Of a stretch of 64,000 bases of DNA, positions 2,797-18,522 are shown piece after piece. How positions within the stretch are numbered: position 1 is the stretch's first letter; each line of letters begins with the position of its first letter. The notes beneath the pieces are model-generated. The model was not told the DNA's origin. It did no database searches and saw only the letters and a list, made by a program, of their open reading frames with translations. The position numbers were made by a program, and so were the translations under genes. Origin of the DNA: Bacteroidetes bacterium HGW-Bacteroidetes-2 (GTDB lineage: Bacteria; Bacteroidota; Bacteroidia; Flavobacteriales; Flavobacteriaceae); assembly GCA_002842575.1 (NCBI GenBank), contig PHDJ01000010.1, positions 1 through 64,000 of the forward strand, given 5' to 3'.

Positions 2797-3939
2797 ATGA
2801 AGTTCACTTTTCTTTTCATAGTCTATACTTTTTTAGGTTTTCAGAATGCATCAGCAAAAGAAGACCCAATAGCGGTTTTGAATGAAATGATAGCTGAAAT
2901 AAGTCAGGTAAACTTATTTTATCAGAATAAGAAAGATATTTTACTTGAGAGGGAGTTGCAAATAAATGAAGAGCTAAAGAAACCCATTTCAATAGAGAAA
3001 AAAGTTGACTTATTAATCGAGAAAGGAGAAGTAAACAGTACTATATCTGAGATTTCAAACTTTCAATTTTTAGAGATAAGTAAAATAAGATATCTTAAGG
3101 GAATTCAAGTAATCAGGCTATTATATGGTAAAATATTGGCTTTGGATCACCATTTTGCAGCAGTGAGTTCTTTACACGATATTAATTCTATTTCAAATCC
3201 AAATAGCTTTCCGGAATTTATTAGTGCTAAAGCTGAAATTCAAAACGCTCAGGATCGAAGACATGGCTTTGACTTGACGTCTATTTTAGGGAATAATGTT
3301 TATACATCAGTTGTTCACACACTTGTCTCAGTGTTTACTGGCACAGGAAATTCTAAACAAGAAAAAACCAGGCAAATAAGTAATATCGAGTGTATTTTAG
3401 ATTTTACATTAAGCGTCCACAACGATTTAAATACTATCTATTTTGAAACTGCCTTTCTCAAAAAACAGAATGAAAACATAAAACAAGACATTCTTCAACT
3501 TTTTAATGATTTTACACAACCTATTAAATATGAAAGCGGCCTTGAAGATTTCAGAAAAAAGGATGATTGGGATGAACTAAGAACAGGGTTAGAGGCATAT
3601 TTAGATGAGTTAAAAGATCTTTTAAAAGACAAAACACAACAAGATCGTTCCAGAAGGATGAGGGTTAACCTAGAATTTCCCACAGATCGTTTATTGCAGT
3701 TTATCAGTCAGTATAATACCTTTATAAATCAAGGAACGAATTTTTATGAAAAGTTTTATATAATGCTAGATAGTTACGAAGAAAAAGGTCAATGTGCCAG
3801 CAAAACTCCCGTTGAGTACAAAAGGTTAAAAGAGGGAATAAATATCACAATTGAAAAATTTAACACCGCATACAAGCCAATAGAAATAAACGGTAATAAA
3901 CTCAAAGAAGTTCTATATGGGTTAAATGAATACAATTAG
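2797..3939 (+). CDS. exported helical protein of unknown function
   Basis: A 380-residue protein beginning with a signal peptide (MKFTFLFIVYTFLGFQNASA) with an Ala-x-Ala cleavage site. The mature part is rich in Lys, Glu, Leu and Ile and looks almost entirely alpha-helical. It has probable coiled coils around residues 20-80 and 200-290. There are no membrane segments and no enzymatic motif. It follows the small exported protein by 7 nt and is closed by a terminator, forming a two-gene unit. A periplasmic structural or binding role is possible but not shown. Confidence 0.65.
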   Translation: MKFTFLFIVYTFLGFQNASAKEDPIAVLNEMIAEISQVNLFYQNKKDILLERELQINEELKKPISIEKKVDLLIEKGEVNSTISEISNFQFLEISKIRYLKGIQVIRLLYGKILALDHHFAAVSSLHDINSISNPNSFPEFISAKAEIQNAQDRRHGFDLTSILGNNVYTSVVHTLVSVFTGTGNSKQEKTRQISNIECILDFTLSVHNDLNTIYFETAFLKKQNENIKQDILQLFNDFTQPIKYESGLEDFRKKDDWDELRTGLEAYLDELKDLLKDKTQQDRSRRMRVNLEFPTDRLLQFISQYNTFINQGTNFYEKFYIMLDSYEEKGQCASKTPVEYKRLKEGINITIEKFNTAYKPIEINGNKLKEVLYGLNEYN

Positions 3940-3977
3940 TGTGTAAAAATAACCCTGAAAAATTAACAAATCAAGAA

Positions 3978-4011
3978 AAAAATCTGCTTAAATATTTTAA
4001 GCAGATTTTTA
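3978..4011. terminator. bidirectional terminator
   Basis: A perfect 13-bp stem, 3979-3991 with 3997-4009, over a 5-nt loop. A T-run follows on the plus strand and A-rich flanks give the same on the minus strand. It lies between the convergent ends of the exported-protein operon and metK and can serve both. Confidence 0.75.
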
Positions 4012-4057
4012 TATAAACTAAACTCTCACTCTTTTTTAATCCTTCAATCCGTATTAA

Positions 4058-5314
4058 TTATTCAAACCCAAAAGCTTCTCTAACCGCTTCCACCATATCC
4101 AGTTTTTCCCAGGTGAAAAGTTCGACTTCAATTTCTTTTCTACCGGAGTAGGGGCTTTCAAAGACTTTGGTGATGGTTTGCGGCTCGCGGCCCATATGAC
4201 CGTAAGCTGCTGTTTCACTGTAAATGGGGTTACGCAGTTTTAATCTTGATTCGATTGCGGCCGGGCGCATATCAAAAAGCTTCATGACCTGTTCGGCAAT
4301 TTCGCCATCGGTAAGGTTGAGTGTTGATGAGCCATAGGTATTCACATAAATGGAAGTGGGTTCAACCACACCAATGGCATAACTCACCTGCACTAAAATT
4401 TCTTCGGCAACACCGGCAGCAACCAGATTTTTAGCAACGTGTCTGGCAGCATAAGCGGCACTGCGATCTACTTTGCTGGGGTCTTTTCCTGAAAAAGCAC
4501 CACCACCGTGAGCGCCTTTACCGCCATAGGTATCTACAATGATTTTTCTTCCGGTTAAACCGGTATCACCGTGAGGACCACCAATCACAAATTTTCCGGT
4601 AGGATTGATGTGGTAAACAATTTCATCATTAAACAATTCCTGAACATAGTCAGGCAACTGTGCTTTCACACGTGGAATTAAAATATTGATGATGTCGCTT
4701 TTGATTTTCGCAAGCATTTTTTCGTCCTCATCAAAATCATCGTGTTGAGTGGAAACAACAATGGCTACAATTTTTTGTGGTACGTTGTCATCGCTATATT
4801 CAATAGTTACCTGGCTTTTGGAGTCGGGACGCAAATATGGAATTTCTTTTTCCTCTCGGCGTAAAGCAGCAAGTTCTATTAATATTTTATGTGAAATATC
4901 TAGCGCCAAAGGCATAAAGTTGGCGGTTTCTGAAGTGGCATACCCAAACATCATCCCTTGGTCGCCGGCACCTTGCTCTTCTTTGTTTTCACGGTCCACA
5001 CCTTGATTGATGTCTTGTGATTGCTCGTGAATTAATGAAATCACCCCACAGGAATCCCCACTAAATTGATAAGCTCCTTTGGTATACCCAATCTTGTTCA
5101 CGACATCGCGTGCAATTTGCTGTACATCGAGATAAGTATTGCTTTTTACCTCGCCGGCAAGCACAACTTGTCCCGTTGTAACTAATGTTTCACAAGCTAC
5201 TTTGGAAGAAGGATCAAAGGCTAAAAAATTATCTAAAAGGGCGTCACTAATTTGATCAGCAACTTTATCTGGGTGTCCTTCTGAAACACTTTCTGAAGTA
5301 AATAAATAGGCCAT
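4058..5314 (-). CDS. metK: S-adenosylmethionine synthase
   Basis: MetK joins methionine and ATP to make SAM, releasing phosphate and pyrophosphate. It acts in the cytoplasm as a tetramer. Seen in the 418-residue protein: the N-terminal [19 protein letters not shown], the signature [12 protein letters not shown], the P-loop-like [19 protein letters not shown], and [13 protein letters not shown]. The length is a little above the roughly 380-400 of many homologues and normal for Bacteroidota. It is transcribed divergently from metH, with a 140-nt leader on its own strand. Together with the metH and metF genes it forms the methionine-SAM block. Confidence 0.98.
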
Positions 5315-5456
5315 TCTTTTCGTTTAAGTTTGTTGAGGGAAAACCCTAAGACGCAAAATCAGGTAGGAATTACACTGCTTTAGCATTTTTCACCCTGAGC
5401 TTAATTCAGGATTTATGAGGTTGCAATCAGTCAAATTTTTCCTCAAAAATTGGTTA
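5315..5456 (-). promoter_or_regulatory. metK leader, possible SAM-responsive element
   Basis: The leader between the probable metK promoter and its start codon is about 140 nt, long for this organism. Read on the minus strand it contains GCAACC, then a CCTGA/TCAGG hairpin, then TGCTAAAGC and TTCC, in the order of the SAM-I core sub-motifs. I could not build a P1 or P2 helix. It may be a degenerate or different SAM-responsive leader, or chance similarity. Confidence 0.25.
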
Positions 5457-5594: not shown

Positions 5595-5625
5595 CATGTT
5601 TAAAGTTCAAAATACGTATTGTAAT

Positions 5626-5726
5626 GTTATCACGAAAGCTGGAGGGAATAGACCCGTTGAAAGCTTAGCAACCCTACTCTGTAGAAGGTGCTACATTCTA
5701 TCCCGATTTTATCGGGAAAAGATAAC
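5626..5726 (+). promoter_or_regulatory. SAM-I riboswitch
   Basis: The conserved SAM-I core is present in order: P1 strand GTTATC (5626-5631) pairing with GATAAC (5721-5726); CTGGAGGGAATAGACCC; TTGAAAGCTTAGCAACCC; a CTAC/GTAG P3 helix; AAGGTGCTACATTC; and a P4 helix TCCCGAT/ATCGGGA. SAM binding in this class lowers expression of the downstream gene, here metH. A second GATAAC copy at 5756-5761 could compete for the P1 5' strand. A short GAGA/TCTC hairpin followed by six T (5730-5751) is a possible expression platform. Confidence 0.93.
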
Positions 5727-5804
5727 CCCGAGAAATTCTCTTCCATTTTTTCCTCGATAACATATATTTTTAATAATCAACCTTAACCGGTAAATTAGTT
5801 ATAT

Positions 5805-12609: not shown

Positions 12610-12909
12610 TTATTTTCTTTTAGTCCAAGATTTTGGATTTCTTTTCCCGTGAAAAACACCAAAAACTAAAATTGTGTTTTTTTCAATAGTAAAATGGATT
12701 TGATAAGGAAATTGAGTAAGATTGCAAATTCGGGATTGTTTATATTTAACTGCCAGTTTTTTGGGATTAATTGTAATATAATTTAACCCTTCTTCTAAAT
12801 TTTGTAAAAACCGGGTTTCAAGGTTTTCGGAAGGAATTTCAGCATAATAATCATAGGCTTCTTTTATATCCCAGGAAGCTTCATCAGATAATAGCAACCT
12901 GTATTTCAT
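12610..12909 (-). CDS. RelE/ParE-type toxin
   Basis: A 99-residue protein with the ParE/RelE pattern: an N-terminal MKYRLLLSDEASWDIKEAYDYY helix, then RFLQNLEEGLNYITINPKKL, the ICNLTQFPYQIHFTIEKNTILVFGVFHGKRNP beta-sheet core and basic C-terminal residues. Toxins of this family act on ribosome-bound mRNA (RelE) or gyrase (ParE); the sequence does not decide which, though the long helical N-terminus favours ParE. Its start overlaps the upstream antitoxin stop by 4 nt, the usual antitoxin-toxin order. Confidence 0.85.
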   Translation of the reverse strand: MKYRLLLSDEASWDIKEAYDYYAEIPSENLETRFLQNLEEGLNYITINPKKLAVKYKQSRICNLTQFPYQIHFTIEKNTILVFGVFHGKRNPKSWTKRK

Positions 12910-13139
12910 GGTTCTTTCAAGATTTTATCTTTGGTTACTTCCCATGTATAAAATTGGGTTTCCCCAGTTTTATATCGTTCTAATCTTTTGTCCAATTCAT
13001 CCTTTTGAGCCTGGCTCAATTCCACCTCTTCCTGTTTTTGATAACTTTCAGCTAACTCTTGTATTAAGTGCAAAAGATTGTCATCAGCAGAATGAATATA
13101 TTCAAAAACCTTTTTTCTTAAATCATTATTCTTATTCAT
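12906..13139 (-). CDS. antitoxin of the addiction-module-component family
   Basis: A 77-residue acidic, helical protein. The C-terminal half ELSQAQKDELDKRLERYKTG matches the consensus of the putative addiction module component family that pairs with ParE/RelE toxins. It directly precedes the toxin gene and overlaps it by 4 nt. It would bind and neutralise the toxin and probably repress their shared promoter. The N-terminal half, predicted helical, lacks a clear DNA-binding motif. Confidence 0.82.
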   Translation of the reverse strand: MNKNNDLRKKVFEYIHSADDNLLHLIQELAESYQKQEEVELSQAQKDELDKRLERYKTGETQFYTWEVTKDKILKEP

Positions 13140-13182: not shown

Positions 13183-13245
13183 TTATTTTTCAATAGACCC
13201 CGTCAATTCTCTAAACAACTGCTCCAAGTTTTTGTGTTCAAGGGC
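13183..13245 (-). pseudogene. orphan 3' tail of gldA
   Basis: Read on the minus strand this encodes LEHKNLEQLFRELTGSIEK and a stop, clearly the C-terminus of GldA. The intact gldA 4.2 kb away ends LKNKNLEQLFRELTGKTD. No further gldA sequence is attached, so it is a displaced tail marking the left edge of an inserted segment. It lies just upstream of the toxin-antitoxin pair in the sense of gldA transcription, which probably was the original downstream neighbour of gldA. Confidence 0.85.
13198..13234. repeat. left direct repeat (gldA 3' end)
   Basis: This 37-bp stretch matches 17404-17440 at 35 of 37 positions in the same orientation. The two differences are both T/C changes at codon third positions of gldA. 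It is a candidate attachment-site half or recombination footprint. Confidence 0.8.
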
Positions 13246-14095
13246 ATATTACTCTACCCCTGCGAGCAAAAAACTCTGCTTCATACTCAAAGAAGTTATC
13301 GAAATAACAGCTATTAGCTCTGTTTTCATAAAGATATAAACCTCTTAATATAATACCCTGAGTATCGAAATATAACAAATTATTAATTCTATTGAATGTG
13401 TTTGATTTATTTTTCCAATTCATTACAGGTTTGTTAAAATATGAATTAATAAAATTATAATCGTAGTATTGATAAATATGAATTAATTCGTGGGAAAATA
13501 AAAAATAATTATCTAAATGATTAGTATCTATCACCATAACATTTCCAAATACAAAAGCCCTTTTATTTCTATCTAATAGCAAATCACTTTGTGAAAATAT
13601 TAACTCACCTGTTTGTAAAGAGCGTGAAAATTCAAATTTAGTTTTAGAGGCAGTTATAGTAGTTAAAATAAATGAAACGGGCATAATCTTATACCTTACC
13701 TTGAATTGATTTTTAGTATAAAATTCAATTCTGTTAAATCCAATATTAAAATGCCATTGCTCAAATAATCCTCGATTAGAAGTGGCATTTTAAACAATTG
13801 AGGTGCCTGCTGAATTAACCATTTTTGCCGCCCAACTATATTCCCAATGCCCCTTTTCTGGAATTTTACCTACTAAATTTTTGCTTTCATAAATTAAGTA
13901 GCCACCGATTGCTCCTTTCCAAAACCCATTTAGAAATATCTCTCCAATTTTATCCTCTGGGTTTTTATTTATAACGGCACCTATACCTCCAAAAACAGAG
14001 CCCAATCCTATGTTATACAATGCTATTTCAGTTTTATTTTGGGCTTGAAAATTTGTGTATAATAATAAGAATATAAGAAGAATAAATCTGTTCAT
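13238..14095 (-). pseudogene. HExxH exported protein interrupted by a stop codon
   Basis: Two open stretches, 14095-13790 and 13789-13238, lie in one frame separated by a single TAA at 13790-13792. Translating through it gives one coherent 285-residue protein: a signal peptide (MNRFILLIFLLLYTNFQAQ), a Gly-rich stretch, VNSAGTSIV-stop-NATSNRGLFEQWHFNIGFNR, then SHELIHIYQ, a zinc-metalloprotease HExxH motif at 13492-13478. A later EYEAEFFARR could supply a third ligand. The C-terminal end runs into the gldA-tail repeat and may also be truncated. Its start overlaps the Lnt-like gene stop by 4 nt. A sequencing error at the TAA cannot be excluded. Confidence 0.7.
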
Positions 14096-15561
14096 AATTG
14101 TTTTCCTGGTTTAAAAAATGTAGCTATCAAAAAAATTAATAAGCAACCAAAAATTGCATCTTTGCCATAGTTGCTATAAAATGAGGGCTTATTTTTAGGT
14201 ACTGATACCTCAAAATAGTTAATAACATCATTTGATTTTTTTAGTATATTGCCTGATGGGCTTATTGCTAAAGACCAACCATAATTTGATGCTTTTATAA
14301 CGGGGCGATTACTTTCAATAGCCCTTAACTTAATAATGTTATCATATTGTGCCATCCTATACCTGTTTGAATTCATAAAAAGTTCACTTGACATTACATA
14401 AATATATGAAGCATTTTTAATTTTATCTGCTACATAGAACGAATAAATTGATTCATAACAAATAAGAGGTAAAATTTGTATAGTATTTATAATTTGTTCT
14501 GACGAATCTTCAACATCTCCTCGATAAAACTTTTTATTAAAATAAGGATACAATTTAGGAAAAATATATTCAGTATATGGCACGAGTCGGTTTTTTACTT
14601 TTCCATAAAGAGTGTCTTTTGTGACTGTTATGGAGGCATTTACCATAAAATCTTTTTTCAAAAATCCTGTAGTACCTATAAATATATTTTCTACTATTCC
14701 ATTTATAATTAAGGTTTTAAAGTAGTGATGTGTTAAAGAGTTAGAAAAATTATTGTTATACATACCCCTAAAAGTTTGTTCTGGTATGATAAGCGATTTG
14801 TAACAACCTAAAGTGTCAATGTTTTTTATTATGTTAAAAGCAAGTTTATCTTTTTGCAATATTTGAGTGTTGTATTGATTATTGTAGGTAATAAAACGAT
14901 CAAATACTCCTAAGTTTTCTTCCTCTATATTGATGTCAAGTAAGAACAATGATAAAATCGAAGGCAATAATATAGTTATAAATAATAGGTTTAAATTCTT
15001 TTTTTTCAGAAAGATAATTTGGAATATAAAATAAGAAATTAACAATAACCACAAACTACCCCCAAGCACTCCGGTAAACTGATACCATTGAGCTAAATAA
15101 GTTTGGTTTGAAAGCAGGTTACCTAAAGTAAGCCAAGGGTATGAAAAATGATAGCTATTCTGTACATACTCAAAAAACAACCATAATGGGATAAAGACCA
15201 GTGTAGTTACATTGTACCTTTTTCTCAATATATAAAAAACTACAAAAGGGACAAGGTAAACTAACACATTTGCAAATAGACCAAAAACTCCCTTGTCAAT
15301 ACTAAACATCCAGAACAAGGCACCTATGTGCCAAGTAACAAGTATTGTAAGTGTTTTAAAAATATATAAATTAAATGGTATTTTATCACAGTAATGTATG
15401 TGATAAAAAATAGCAATTATAAATACTATAAAAAATAACCCAAAGTAGTTCCATGATAAAAATGAAACAAAGGTCAAAGATAAAGGGATCATAATCCATA
15501 AAACAAATAAAAGCAGTTTAATTAAACTGCTTTTATTTGTATAATTACATTTTTGAATCAT
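14092..15561 (-). CDS. apolipoprotein N-acyltransferase-like protein
   Basis: A 489-residue integral membrane protein of the Lnt family. Lnt moves an acyl chain from a phospholipid to the N-terminal Cys of lipoproteins. Seen: about six hydrophobic segments in residues 12-210 with the family's IPLWLFFEYVQN and YPWLTLGN motifs. A carbon-nitrogen hydrolase domain follows with the complete triad, Glu261 (IIPEQTF), Lys323 (KNRLVPYTEY) and Cys368 (LICYES), plus a final membrane helix. Its start overlaps the upstream lipoprotein gene by 4 nt, suggesting that this lipoprotein is a dedicated substrate. Whether it is the cell's only Lnt or an extra one cannot be told here; the cassette setting argues for an extra one. 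Confidence 0.88.
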   Translation of the reverse strand: MIQKCNYTNKSSLIKLLLFVLWIMIPLSLTFVSFLSWNYFGLFFIVFIIAIFYHIHYCDKIPFNLYIFKTLTILVTWHIGALFWMFSIDKGVFGLFANVLVYLVPFVVFYILRKRYNVTTLVFIPLWLFFEYVQNSYHFSYPWLTLGNLLSNQTYLAQWYQFTGVLGGSLWLLLISYFIFQIIFLKKKNLNLLFITILLPSILSLFLLDINIEEENLGVFDRFITYNNQYNTQILQKDKLAFNIIKNIDTLGCYKSLIIPEQTFRGMYNNNFSNSLTHHYFKTLIINGIVENIFIGTTGFLKKDFMVNASITVTKDTLYGKVKNRLVPYTEYIFPKLYPYFNKKFYRGDVEDSSEQIINTIQILPLICYESIYSFYVADKIKNASYIYVMSSELFMNSNRYRMAQYDNIIKLRAIESNRPVIKASNYGWSLAISPSGNILKKSNDVINYFEVSVPKNKPSFYSNYGKDAIFGCLLIFLIATFFKPGKQL

Positions 15562-16322
15562 TTTTTTAGATTCATTTCATTTCGAACAGAAGTGATTGCA
15601 ATAAAAGATGGTTCATTTTCGTGTACTTGGTACGCACCCCTACTGACCCTTATGGTTATTATAGCATCTTTCGGAAATCTTTCAACATCTTGTTGACTGA
15701 TTTGATAACTACCCTGACTATCTTCTACCACAAAAGTTTCAGATATACGAAATTGGTTTTCCCAAGCAATGTTTCCATTTAATTGATGTAATGGATCATA
15801 AGTTATAAATACTACAACACCATTTGTGTTCAGGTTGTCTGCATTCCAACTAATTGTTGAACCAGCTTCAATAAAATTTGAAGAAAAATTTACTGAAATT
15901 AACTCAGGAATATATATTGAATCTCCACTTCCTCCAATTCTCTGTCCTTTTTCATAAATTGTATAATTTAGAGTATCTCCGAATAAATTTTCAAATCGTG
16001 AGTCAAAAGAATTATTTTCAAATTGGATTGAACTTTTCAAACCATCAAATATTTCTATAGATTTATTTGATCTCAAATTAGATTGTTCACTTCTTTTTTC
16101 GGATATGGCTACTCTCCTAGATTGTTTATTGCCAACACCTAGAGCATTTGATTGAAGCAAAATACTTCCGTCTAATTTTTCAGTTAACATTAATTTAGTA
16201 AGTTTTTCAACTAAATCTGCTTTAGCTTTTACTTCTTCATCTAACATGTTATTTTCAGTAGAACATGCATAAAATAATAATATTGATAAAAATGCGCAAA
16301 ATTTGATTATATAATTTTTCAT
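15558..16322 (-). CDS. cassette lipoprotein
   Basis: A 254-residue lipoprotein with lipobox FYAC (Cys20) followed by an acidic STENNMLDEE stretch, a pattern compatible with surface-export signals of Bacteroidota lipoproteins. After a low-complexity linker, the C-terminal half is beta-rich (GSTISWNADNLNTNGVVVFITYDP, YQISQQDVERFPKDAIITIRVSRG), reminiscent of an immunoglobulin-like fold. It starts 11 nt after the exported protein gene and overlaps the Lnt-like gene by 4 nt. Function unknown; probably modified by the neighbouring acyltransferase (inference). Confidence 0.75.
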   Translation of the reverse strand: MKNYIIKFCAFLSILLFYACSTENNMLDEEVKAKADLVEKLTKLMLTEKLDGSILLQSNALGVGNKQSRRVAISEKRSEQSNLRSNKSIEIFDGLKSSIQFENNSFDSRFENLFGDTLNYTIYEKGQRIGGSGDSIYIPELISVNFSSNFIEAGSTISWNADNLNTNGVVVFITYDPLHQLNGNIAWENQFRISETFVVEDSQGSYQISQQDVERFPKDAIITIRVSRGAYQVHENEPSFIAITSVRNEMNLKK

Positions 16323-16333
16323 TTTTTTAGTTT

Positions 16334-17017
16334 TTAGTTTCCTCTGTTAGTTATAAAATCATTTGCATCAGTATAATCTTCAATACCTGCTGGTTTAGAA
16401 TCCCCACAATCTGCACAACCCCATGGATTTATATCTTCAACTAAATGTGATGGTGATAAATAGATAGGTTGTGATACACCTTGATTCCAAGGTGCTAAAA
16501 ATGTATACTCAAAAATGTGTTTCAATCGACCGGCATTTGTTTCTCCGGGATAAGTAGGTGTAATGTTGAAATCAAAATTATGGTATGGTGCATCGTATGT
16601 CTCCCAATAAACAACCTCTAGATGAAATTCAAAATCAGCTGGAGGTACTTGAATACTAACAACTTGACTACCAGTTTGAAGTACATATTGAAATGAAAAA
16701 TCAGGACATTGTGGTGAAGTTACAGTTACCATAGCATACCATTTATTTCTTATCATTAACATAAGTGCTGGTATTGCTCCGAATCTTAAATCTTCAGATG
16801 GTACAAAACCTTGAAAATTTGGTTGTCTAGCCCAGTTTGCATCATTTGGACTATCAAAGTTTAATGTAATTGAACGTGTAAGAGGTGGATCAGTACATCC
16901 AGCGTTATTACCACCGCCCGGGTCATTTTTATCAAAACTTGACATGGTAAACGCAATGCTAAAATAAATGCCCAATGTCAATAAACCGACAATGAAAGCA
17001 ATTCTTTTTTTCTTCAT
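16334..17017 (-). CDS. exported protein, first gene of cassette operon
   Basis: A 227-residue protein with a basic start MKKKR and one hydrophobic segment (IAFIVGLLTLGIYFSIAFTM), a signal peptide or anchor. The mature part is acidic and aromatic-rich, with Cys in NAGCTDPP, SPQCPDF and WGCADCGD. It has no lipobox and no enzyme motif. It is the first gene of a minus-strand operon and faces the XRE regulator gene across a 121-nt gap containing a palindrome. I do not recognise the family. Confidence 0.7.
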   Translation of the reverse strand: MKKKRIAFIVGLLTLGIYFSIAFTMSSFDKNDPGGGNNAGCTDPPLTRSITLNFDSPNDANWARQPNFQGFVPSEDLRFGAIPALMLMIRNKWYAMVTVTSPQCPDFSFQYVLQTGSQVVSIQVPPADFEFHLEVVYWETYDAPYHNFDFNITPTYPGETNAGRLKHIFEYTFLAPWNQGVSQPIYLSPSHLVEDINPWGCADCGDSKPAGIEDYTDANDFITNRGN

Positions 17018-17058
17018 AATTTTTGGTTTTTAATTATTAATTTGTAACTGATATTACT

Positions 17059-17066
17059 CGAATATA
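17059..17066 (-). promoter_or_regulatory. possible promoter of cassette operon
   Basis: On the minus strand this reads TATATTCG, one mismatch from TAnnTTTG. It lies about 40 nt ahead of the exported-protein start. Its -33 region would fall in the palindrome at 17083-17100. Confidence 0.35.
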
Positions 17067-17082
17067 TAAAGAAAATTTTTAA

Positions 17083-17100
17083 CAGAACATAAATGTTCTG
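17083..17100. promoter_or_regulatory. palindromic operator candidate
   Basis: CAGAACATAAATGTTCTG is an 8-bp perfect inverted repeat with a 2-bp centre. It lies in the middle of the divergent region between the XRE regulator and the exported-protein operon. Dyads of this size are typical binding sites of dimeric XRE/Cro-like repressors. The position over the -33 region of the minus-strand promoter suggests repression. Confidence 0.55.
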
Positions 17101-17138
17101 AATTTTTTTCAAATACATCCATAATTTTCATCTAGATT

Positions 17139-17360
17139 ATGGACGAAATTGAAAGTTATATCAAGAAAATTGGTAAGAATATTGTTAAGTTAAGGGAAGA
17201 GAGAAACTTGAAACAAATAGATTTGTCTATAAAACTTAACATTGAAGATTCAGCACTACGTAGAATAGAAACAGGAAGAACTAATCCAACAATTAAAACT
17301 CTTTATAACATTGCTGTTGAATTAAATGTTGATTTAATTGAACTATTAAGAAATGATTAG
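17139..17360 (+). CDS. XRE-family regulator
   Basis: A 73-residue protein that is essentially one Cro/C1-type helix-turn-helix: IGKNIVKLREERNLKQIDLSIKLNIEDSALRRIETG, then RTNPTIKTLYNIAVELNVDLIELL. It has no sensor domain. Such short XRE proteins bind DNA as dimers. It is divergent from the cassette operon and shares its control region, so it is probably the local regulator. A near-match -7 box (TAATTTTC, 17122-17129) sits just before the start, giving almost no leader. It is the last gene before the right-hand gldA repeat. Confidence 0.88.
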   Translation: MDEIESYIKKIGKNIVKLREERNLKQIDLSIKLNIEDSALRRIETGRTNPTIKTLYNIAVELNVDLIELLRND

Positions 17361-17391
17361 TTTGTGTCAACGAACTCTACTAGACAAATTT

Positions 17392-18315
17392 TCAATCGGT
17401 TTTCCCCGTCAACTCTCTAAACAATTGCTCCAAGTTTTTGTTTTTCAAATTGAGTTGCAAAATTTTCAATCCATTATCGTGCGCAAAATCAAACACTGCT
17501 GGGCGCATGTCTTTTTGGGTAGTAAAAGTGAGCTCATATACAAAGTCAAAAGTGTTTTCTACCTTTTTTAAGTTGGGCAATCGCTGTAATGCAACATCTT
17601 CTATACGAAAGTCAAACGCCACTTCTATAACTTGATTTTTTGAGTCCTGCATATGAGAAAGGTTTTGGTCGGTTACAATTTTTCCTTGGTTTATGATAAT
17701 CACACGGTCGCATATTGCCTCCACTTCTTGCATAATGTGGGTGGAAAGAAAAACCGTTTTACCTGCTTTACCGTCAGGTTGGTTTCTGGCTACACTTTTT
17801 ATCAATTCTCTTATTTCCAGCAATTGGTTTGGATCTAGACCAGTTGTGGGTTCGTCTAAAATTAATACCTCCGGGTCGTGCAACAAAGCATTCGCCAAAC
17901 CCACTCGTTGCCGATATCCTTTAGAAAGTGCTTCTATTTTTTTATGTGCTTCTGGCGATAGTCCAGTTTGTTGTATTACTTCTTCCACACGGTTTTTAGG
18001 CGTTTTATAAATAGAAGCGTTAAAAAGAAGATATTCTCTTACATACATATCTAAGTACAATGGGTTGTTTTCCGGCAGATAACCAACACTTTTTTGCACT
18101 TGCATAGCTTGGGTGTCTATAGAAAAACCGTTAACTAGGGCAGTACCTTCGGTAGCGGGAATATACGTGGTTAAAATCTTCATCAGTGTAGATTTACCTG
18201 CGCCGTTTGGACCTAAAAAGCCTACTATTTCCCCCTTTTTTATGCTAAAGGAAATGGAATCTAACGCTTTTTGTAGCCCGTAATATTTTGAAATGTTTGT
18301 AACTTCAATAGACAT
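17392..18315 (-). CDS. gldA: gliding-motility ABC transporter ATPase GldA
   Basis: GldA is the ATP-binding subunit of the GldA-GldF-GldG ABC transporter associated with flavobacterial gliding. The 307-residue protein has a Walker A GPNGAGKST, the Q-loop region around GYLPENNPLY, the signature ALSKGYRQR, Walker B VLILDEPTTGLDP and the switch His in LSTHIMQEVE. It also has the C-terminal extension typical of this subfamily. I place the start at the ATG at 18315, giving MSIEVTNISKYYG. A -7 box lies just upstream and any longer frame would run through the aro leader on the other strand. The C-terminal 13 codons are duplicated at 13183-13245. Confidence 0.93.
   Translation of the reverse strand: MSIEVTNISKYYGLQKALDSISFSIKKGEIVGFLGPNGAGKSTLMKILTTYIPATEGTALVNGFSIDTQAMQVQKSVGYLPENNPLYLDMYVREYLLFNASIYKTPKNRVEEVIQQTGLSPEAHKKIEALSKGYRQRVGLANALLHDPEVLILDEPTTGLDPNQLLEIRELIKSVARNQPDGKAGKTVFLSTHIMQEVEAICDRVIIINQGKIVTDQNLSHMQDSKNQVIEVAFDFRIEDVALQRLPNLKKVENTFDFVYELTFTTQKDMRPAVFDFAHDNGLKILQLNLKNKNLEQLFRELTGKTD
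17404..17440. repeat. right direct repeat (gldA 3' end)
   Basis: This 37-bp stretch, inside the last codons of gldA, matches 13198-13234 at 35 of 37 positions. It marks the right edge of the inserted cassette and keeps gldA intact. Confidence 0.8.
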
Positions 18316-18329
18316 TTTTTTCTTTTTTT

Positions 18330-18337
18330 CAAATTTA
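18330..18337 (-). promoter_or_regulatory. gldA promoter box
   Basis: On the minus strand this reads TAAATTTG, a full -7 match 15 nt ahead of the ATG at 18315. It supports that start. Confidence 0.5.
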
Positions 18338-18382
18338 ATGCAATAGCTGCAATAGCTAACTATTTTACTGAAAGAAATATTG

Positions 18383-18390
18383 TAACTTTG
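18383..18390 (+). promoter_or_regulatory. aro operon promoter box
   Basis: TAACTTTG is a full -7 match in the divergent region and lies 85 nt ahead of the Phe leader peptide. No clear -33 TTG was seen. Confidence 0.5.
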
Positions 18391-18474
18391 TGCTGCTTTA
18401 TGAAAAATTACAAAAAAAATAAAAAGTGTTGGTGGCAACTTCTTAAGTGAAGGGCAATCGGTGTATTCCTTAAA

Positions 18475-18522
18475 ATGAAAGACTTTCATTTTTTAGCTCC
18501 GATTGGAGCTTTTATTTTTTAG
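18475..18522 (+). CDS. Phe-rich leader peptide
   Basis: A 15-codon frame encodes MKDFHFLAPIGAFIF and ends at TAG 18520-18522, 16 nt ahead of aroG. Four of 15 residues are Phe, all TTT. A terminator-like hairpin lies inside the frame. Placed before the enzyme that opens aromatic amino-acid synthesis and also makes prephenate, this is the arrangement of a translation-coupled attenuator sensing charged tRNA-Phe. Slow translation at the early Phe codons would leave a ribosome over the hairpin's 5' arm. The mechanism is inference. Confidence 0.7.
   Translation: MKDFHFLAPIGAFIF
18495..18521 (+). terminator. attenuator hairpin in the Phe leader
   Basis: AGCTCC (18495-18500) pairs with GGAGCT (18505-18510) over a GATT loop and is followed by TTTTATTTTTT. 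This is an intrinsic-terminator shape, placed after the promoter and before aroG, hence an attenuator candidate. Confidence 0.65.

Follow-up and report, generated by a model that had tools for sequence, protein, structure and literature searches.

A five-gene cassette inserted at the 3' end of gldA

The subject of this analysis is a 4.2-kb cassette of five genes in the first 64,000 nucleotides of contig PHDJ01000010.1 of Bacteroidetes bacterium HGW-Bacteroidetes-2 (this whole stretch is called the window). Comparison with related genomes shows that the cassette spread laterally within the Flavobacteriaceae and was inserted at the 3' end of gldA, which was rebuilt as an intact gene. A repeat search of the window found the cassette bracketed by a pair of 41-bp direct repeats that are 93% identical (38/41, 3 mismatches; Table 1). 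One copy is made of codons of the intact gldA (TIGR03522 match of 446.8 bits; cut-off, 402.6); the other reads LEQLFRELTGSIEK-stop, as an orphaned end of gldA, and belongs to no complete gldA. The last 51 nucleotides of gldA have a second match of 41/51 within 9 kb downstream, compared to a maximum of 31/51 among 1000 shuffles, and a 151-base query including the left copy matched its own genome solely at the two repeat places. The GC (guanine plus cytosine) content of the cassette is 29.1%, versus 34.1% in the remainder of the window. An earlier note on this DNA had described 37-bp direct repeats with 35/37 identities, an orphan tail on the left, and an intact gldA on the right; the two mismatches do lie inside those 37 bp, the full repeat extends to 41 bp, and the TIGR03522 match bears out the intact gldA on the right.

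The same structure is found in a sister metagenome-assembled genome (MAG), here called G002, with the window genome called G000. In G002 the two repeat copies are identical (42/42) and bracket this cassette at the corresponding position in gldA, again with an orphan SIEK tail on one side and a KTD end on the other. Its second gldA tail scores 45/51, and the maximum for 1000 shuffles was 31 to 32 in these two genomes, which served as positive controls. Since the structure is present in two assemblies, an assembly artefact was rejected.

Lateral movement after the two lineages parted

The cassette is far more alike in the two species than its surroundings. Between G000 and G002 it has 53 mismatches in 4165 positions (98.7% identity), whereas gldA has 67 in 871 (92.3%; Fisher p = 4e-22 against the cassette) and the stretch left of the repeat has 13 in 268 (95.1%; Fisher p = 1e-4 against the cassette). 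The more distant flanks are 84.8% (left) and 88.1% (right) identical. Synonymous divergence (dS) agrees: the values of the cassette genes are 0 for the regulator, 0.007 for the exported protein, 0.013 for the lipoprotein, 0.020 for the Lnt-like protein, and 0.083 for the HExxH protein, versus 0.353 for gldA and 0.577, 0.662, 0.765, and 0.931 for the other four of the five larger flanking genes. The antitoxin gene has a dS of 0.153, from 40 synonymous sites only. The best change points in identity fall at 13239 (range, 13236 to 14937) and 17415 (range, 17354 to 17430). The first is loose because the HExxH gene, which lies at that end, has diverged more than the remainder of the cassette; the second is tight. 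The low divergence of the cassette relative to its flanks, together with change points at the repeats, means that the cassette moved laterally, apparently in recent times, after the G000 and G002 lineages had parted, inserting at the gldA 3' end, and that its limits are the repeats or lie very near them, as far as the data resolve.

Congeners keep a single gldA end

Five genomes of the genus, G000 included, were compared. The other three congeners (G001, G003, and G004) each have a single gldA end, with tails GGEEN, EPIEK, and GDV, and no cassette there; no second gldA tail was found within 9 kb (best scores, 26, 26, and 25 of 51, respectively). Sites with one copy and no cassette, which the earlier note had proposed to look for, are thus present in the genus. 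In G001, another gene comes directly after gldA, and next to it is a 249-amino-acid (aa) lipoprotein gene that also occurs in the window; because this far neighbour is the same, G001 represents a syntenic empty site, apart from a single additional gene in the interval. The gldA neighbours in G003 and G004 differ from those in the window.

Because the congeners have one gldA end each and no second tail, the simplest reading takes the orphan SIEK tail as the original chromosomal end of gldA, and the KTD end would have arrived with the cassette. The suggestions that gldA was the target, that the cassette came as a unit, and that it brought its own gldA end are therefore borne out by the congeners and by G002. 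Less straightforward is the idea that the toxin-antitoxin (TA) pair beyond the orphan tail was the former neighbour of gldA. It holds in G000 and in G002, where part of the toxin gene is missing, and fails in G001, which has no TA pair after gldA; the pair is thus itself accessory. As an alignment gap, G002 lacks most of the ParE-like toxin gene (window 12648-12917) and keeps the antitoxin gene.

How the cassette may have been inserted

How could a cassette with no recombinase gene come to lie at the same gene end in two species? We lean, with moderate confidence, toward lateral transfer and insertion at the gldA end by att (attachment site)-type recombination, carried out by a tyrosine recombinase acting in trans, as in a cis-mobilizable element (CIME). 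A five-gene, 4.2-kb cassette entered two related Flavobacteriaceae laterally, into the last codons of gldA. The recombinase, from an element outside this locus, would excise and integrate a circle carrying one repeat. The 5' part of gldA was joined to the cassette-borne KTD-stop end, with the gene staying whole, and the displaced SIEK-stop chromosomal end was left on the far side, behind the second 41- to 42-bp copy. We prefer this reading because the insertion is precise and because the architecture, namely, a repeat at a gene 3' end, a rebuilt gene, and a repeat length within 8 to 60 bp, is like that of integrase-made islands. From this likeness we infer that the 42 bp act as attL and attR and that the recombinase was supplied in trans.

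Several results weigh against such a recombinase. No integrase or transposase family was found among the cassette genes with Pfam and NCBIfam, and tblastn of the 26 integrase frames of the genus (25 distinct) gave no match in the window at 1e-4; the claim that no integrase lies inside the cassette therefore stands. No inverted core arms were recognised by eye. None of 60 family gldA loci has a clear second gldA tail or other cargo between two tails. No gene-end repeat surrounds the related module in the five loci tested elsewhere in the family (L062, L057, L064, L054, and L056; see below), and the range of the left change point is wide. Finally, the repeats themselves carry bases of their hosts. 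The right copies of G000 and G002 differ at two synonymous sites, and at both the left copy of each species has its own species' base. The G000 left copy also departs from its right copy, at 3/41 sites, through changes of its own. If the element bore its att core unchanged, either the left copies or the right copies should be the same in both species, which is not seen, and an element-carried core does not predict host bases in both copies unless the donor was nearly identical. The shared host bases fit a donor strain with a host-like core, homology-driven integration, or copying of the target.

Of these, integration driven by homology is a possible though clearly less probable route. The repeats would recombine, by RecA or short-homology recombination, and release a circle with one repeat, which natural transformation and a single crossover would place in the next gldA. 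No recombinase is needed, as suits a cassette without one in a window without an integrase match; the lone 42-bp homology would always direct the circle to gldA, where the core could acquire host bases. Against this, 42 bp offers little homology for efficient recombination, and two insertions with precise ends must both be retained.

It is unlikely that a single ancestral insertion preceded the G000/G002 split, with interspecies exchange homogenising the cassette only and gene conversion keeping the repeats alike. The shared site agrees with this, as does the fact that the left stretch and gldA are somewhat more alike than the distant flanks. This would nevertheless require exchange tracts that stop at the repeats or close to them, where the change points fall, and the repeats differ between species (left copies at 5/41 positions, right copies at 2/41) more than the cassette does. 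We also doubt a further reading, in which an integrase-free cassette has its end repeats remade from the host gldA each time, whether by 42-bp pop-out and pop-in or by target copying, and so spreads a lipoprotein module with a dedicated Lnt-like enzyme between species. Target copying as such, with about 42 bp duplicated, both repeats being host gldA, and the cassette running from the KTD-stop to the stop of the HExxH gene, is very improbable: both copies carry their own species' two bases and the G002 repeats are identical throughout, but there is no transposase in the cassette and no terminal inverted repeat among those listed, the G000 copies differ at 3/41 sites, and we know of no DDE transposase that makes target duplications of about 42 bp.

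Other origins were tried and rejected. A DDE transposon or insertion sequence (IS) finds no transposase family, and among 25 listed of 77 inverted pairs none joins the cassette ends. An autonomous gene-end genomic island would have its own integrase beside one end, and the cassette has none there. As for a phage or plasmid origin, an alignment of the exported protein gave 81 pattern stretches, of which 0 were confirmed as viral loci, the core pattern was found in 0 viral contigs, and the cassette DNA matched 0 plasmid records.

A general gldA hotspot is not supported by the loci sampled either. We placed gldA in 128 of 149 family genomes and used the 60 best-scoring loci (G001 and G280 left out), which span up to 14 kb downstream and were searched within 9 kb; in L093 just 5.3 kb is available before the contig end. 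The second match is at most 30/51 in all 60. Seven exceed, by 1 to 3, the best of the 10 shuffles made for each, and none reaches the 31 to 32 of the controls, so that a double-tail gldA is known here only in G000 and G002. A degenerate core pattern occurs in 17 of 397 genomes and twice only in the window genome (G002 and G003 are outside this sample); the pattern says little beyond the genus because gldA tails outside it mostly read LESLFRELT or similar. The 25 distinct integrases also had no match at 1e-4 in the 60 gldA loci, the congener loci, and the related-module loci (79 sequences including the window; best, 0.42). In a control, 26 of 26 integrase loci were found with another locus's integrase, an easy test given the many orthologues; integrases unlike the 25 queries could escape this search. 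The window genome itself has five PF00589 matches. The earlier note had envisaged other cargo between gldA tails and a recombinase linked to gldA islands, and neither was found in the 60 family loci searched with these integrases. Its wider proposal of site-specific island integration survives as an insertion with a rebuilt gene end; evidence of a recombinase was found in neither the cassette, the window, nor the gldA loci searched. In the literature, among the titles and abstract openings listed, we did not find the gldA 3' end as an integration site.

CIMEs are described as deriving from integrative and conjugative or integrative and mobilizable elements (ICEs and IMEs) and have lost integration and transfer genes while keeping attL and attR, and the att sites of tyrosine recombinases measure 8 to 60 bp (PMC5704250), a range that includes the 42-bp repeat. 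Like a CIME, the cassette has direct repeats in the places of attL and attR, one of them in the 3' end of an intact target gene, and no integration or transfer genes were found in it. It differs in its gldA target and five-gene cargo, and the 60 gldA loci and the viral contigs searched yielded no ICE, IME, or phage sharing its att. A second comparison is with Riemerella anatipestifer, which belongs to the order Flavobacteriales. Its 10K island, made by an integrase, is described as having a 53-bp att repeat, its own integrase, and an Arg-tRNA gene as the site (PMC6764341). The cassette resembles this island in having an att-type repeat of similar length inside a gene, but it has no integrase and its site is a protein gene.

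Cassette genes

Table 1. Features at the gldA locus of the window
Feature	Position	Strand	Basis
ParE-like toxin gene, former gldA neighbour outside cassette	12610..12909	-	Pfam PF05016
Antitoxin gene (Unstab_antitox), former neighbour outside cassette	12906..13139	-	Pfam PF09720, TIGR02574
SIEK-stop, probable old chromosomal gldA end outside cassette	13183..13197	-	congener G003 tail EPIEK; blastn of 13183-13233 vs G004 gldA end, 80% over 51 bp
Left repeat copy, orphan gldA codons, attR-like	13198..13238	-	repeat search; G002 counterpart 42 bp, perfect
HExxH (HELIH) protein gene, 285 aa in G002	13238..14095	-	frame reading, alignment with relatives
Lnt-like apolipoprotein N-acyltransferase, divergent second genome copy	14092..15561	-	LNT_N above cut-off, CN_hydrolase just below; triad E261-K323-C368
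254-aa lipoprotein (lipobox LLFYAC by eye)	15558..16322	-	relatives in L039, L062, L057, L064
227-aa exported protein of no assigned family	16334..17017	-	Pfam gave no family
XRE/HTH_3 regulator, divergent from other four genes	17139..17360	+	PF01381
KTD-stop, probable cassette-derived gldA end	17392..17403	-	identical in G002
Right repeat copy, attL-like, inside intact gldA	17404..17444	-	repeat search, G002 alignment
gldA, intact target gene	17392..18315	-	TIGR03522

The cargo genes probably serve to produce an envelope lipoprotein or exported protein and to lipidate it with an Lnt-like acyltransferase of their own, under the control of the XRE regulator. This function is read from protein families and gene order: the adjacency of a dedicated acyltransferase gene to genes for a lipoprotein and an exported protein points to a product that is lipidated and resides in the envelope or at the surface. 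The Lnt-like protein scores 96.2 bits against TIGR00546, under the curated cut-off of 132.9, and is about 23% identical to the cell's own Lnt; housekeeping lnt genes are above the cut-off in all five genomes of the genus. Like housekeeping Lnt, it has LNT_N and C-N hydrolase domains and the Glu-Lys-Cys residues that we take to be the catalytic triad, whereas its distance from the cell's Lnt and its status as an extra copy set it apart. The triad is kept in 4/4 full-length module Lnt-like copies aligned, and a fifth copy, a fragment, retains Lys and Cys.

In the window, the HExxH gene, which adjoins the left repeat, carries an in-frame stop (13790-13792); the G002 copy is open, and its product has no family match in Pfam, PHROGs, or PADLOC. 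Judging from its N-terminal sequence, this protein is presumably exported, and the signal peptides and lipobox of the cassette proteins are likewise our own assignments. The lipoprotein matches a recombination directionality factor in PHROGs (E = 0.012, residues 1-61) and Phage_VG64 in Pfam (E = 0.039, residues 2-59); both fall in the signal region and were judged to be chance. As a single query, the exported protein matched just one of the 397 family genomes, the one that encodes it. AlphaFold models of the exported and HExxH proteins were too poor for structure search (pLDDT [predicted local distance difference test], 44.3 and 41.8), and neither had a sequence relative in the PDB at E = 1. 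Among 7 proteins scanned for defence systems, PADLOC gave only HTH matches of the regulator.

The closest experimentally tested parallel that we found is AatD, an Lnt homologue that is reported to acylate the exported protein CexE (PMC7943197). Judged by gene arrangement, the cassette appears similar in placing an extra Lnt-like enzyme beside an exported protein on accessory DNA; it differs in having no Aat transporter genes, and its products include an HExxH protein as well as a lipoprotein with an apparent lipobox.

Related modules elsewhere in the family

An alignment search with the HExxH protein found relatives in 12 of 397 family genomes, G000 included, and in 2 of 196 genomes of an order sample (G000 and G160). 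The other 11 family genomes hold 13 HExxH loci. All five module genes are present at L062 and four at L057, where the regulator was not seen; L064 has lipoprotein-like and HExxH genes, and L054 and L056 each have an Lnt fragment and an HExxH gene. The remaining 8 of the 13 had no other module gene nearby by BLAST at 1e-4, three of them (L055, L060, and L061) ending at contig ends; one neighbour in L060 is lipoprotein-like by eye. A whole module with two HExxH genes occurs in L039 (JAKITD010000063.1, MAG D96SM.bin.33), where only 141 bp remain on one side. The two genes stand in tandem (3543-5275) and are 82% identical over a 300-nucleotide stretch, which indicates that the HExxH gene duplicates within the module. 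A tail in L039 is presumably that of an IS-like transposase.

These modules lie at various places. The L057 module is between dksA and lspA, which are no more than about 1 kb apart in 13/13 genomes checked, and the L039 module is located before an IPExxxVDY-pyk pair. At L059 (203-8515), a lone HExxH gene is about 2 kb past genes that look, by eye, like Cas9, Cas1, and Cas2. The names dksA, lspA, ileS, rnc, pyk, IPExxxVDY, rsgA, hotdog gene, and those of the Cas genes are our presumptive assignments. Because related modules occupy other sites, with no gene-end repeat in the five tested, gldA is an address particular to this element and not to the module; the module recurs in the family as a set of accessory genes, and the repeat at gldA belongs to this one copy.

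Neighbouring features of the window

Two further features are recorded here. Between gldA and a divergent gene, presumably encoding a DAHP synthase, positions 18301-18500 are 95 to 99% identical to G002, and the adjoining gene bins are about 85 to 94% identical; no Rfam family was found in this stretch at gathering score. Farther away, a SAM-II riboswitch (5370-5450, minus strand) and a SAM (S box; S-adenosylmethionine) riboswitch (5624-5728, plus strand) occupy opposite strands with about 170 bp between them.

Significance

With two species carrying the cassette, congeners without it, and a rebuilt target gene, the gldA locus offers a clean natural case for the travel of att-flanked elements without a recombinase. 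The module itself, for which we found no name, is an accessory set of Flavobacteriaceae in which a lipoprotein and an exported protein are encoded alongside a second, divergent Lnt. Owing to this pairing, the substrate of acylation is directly testable.

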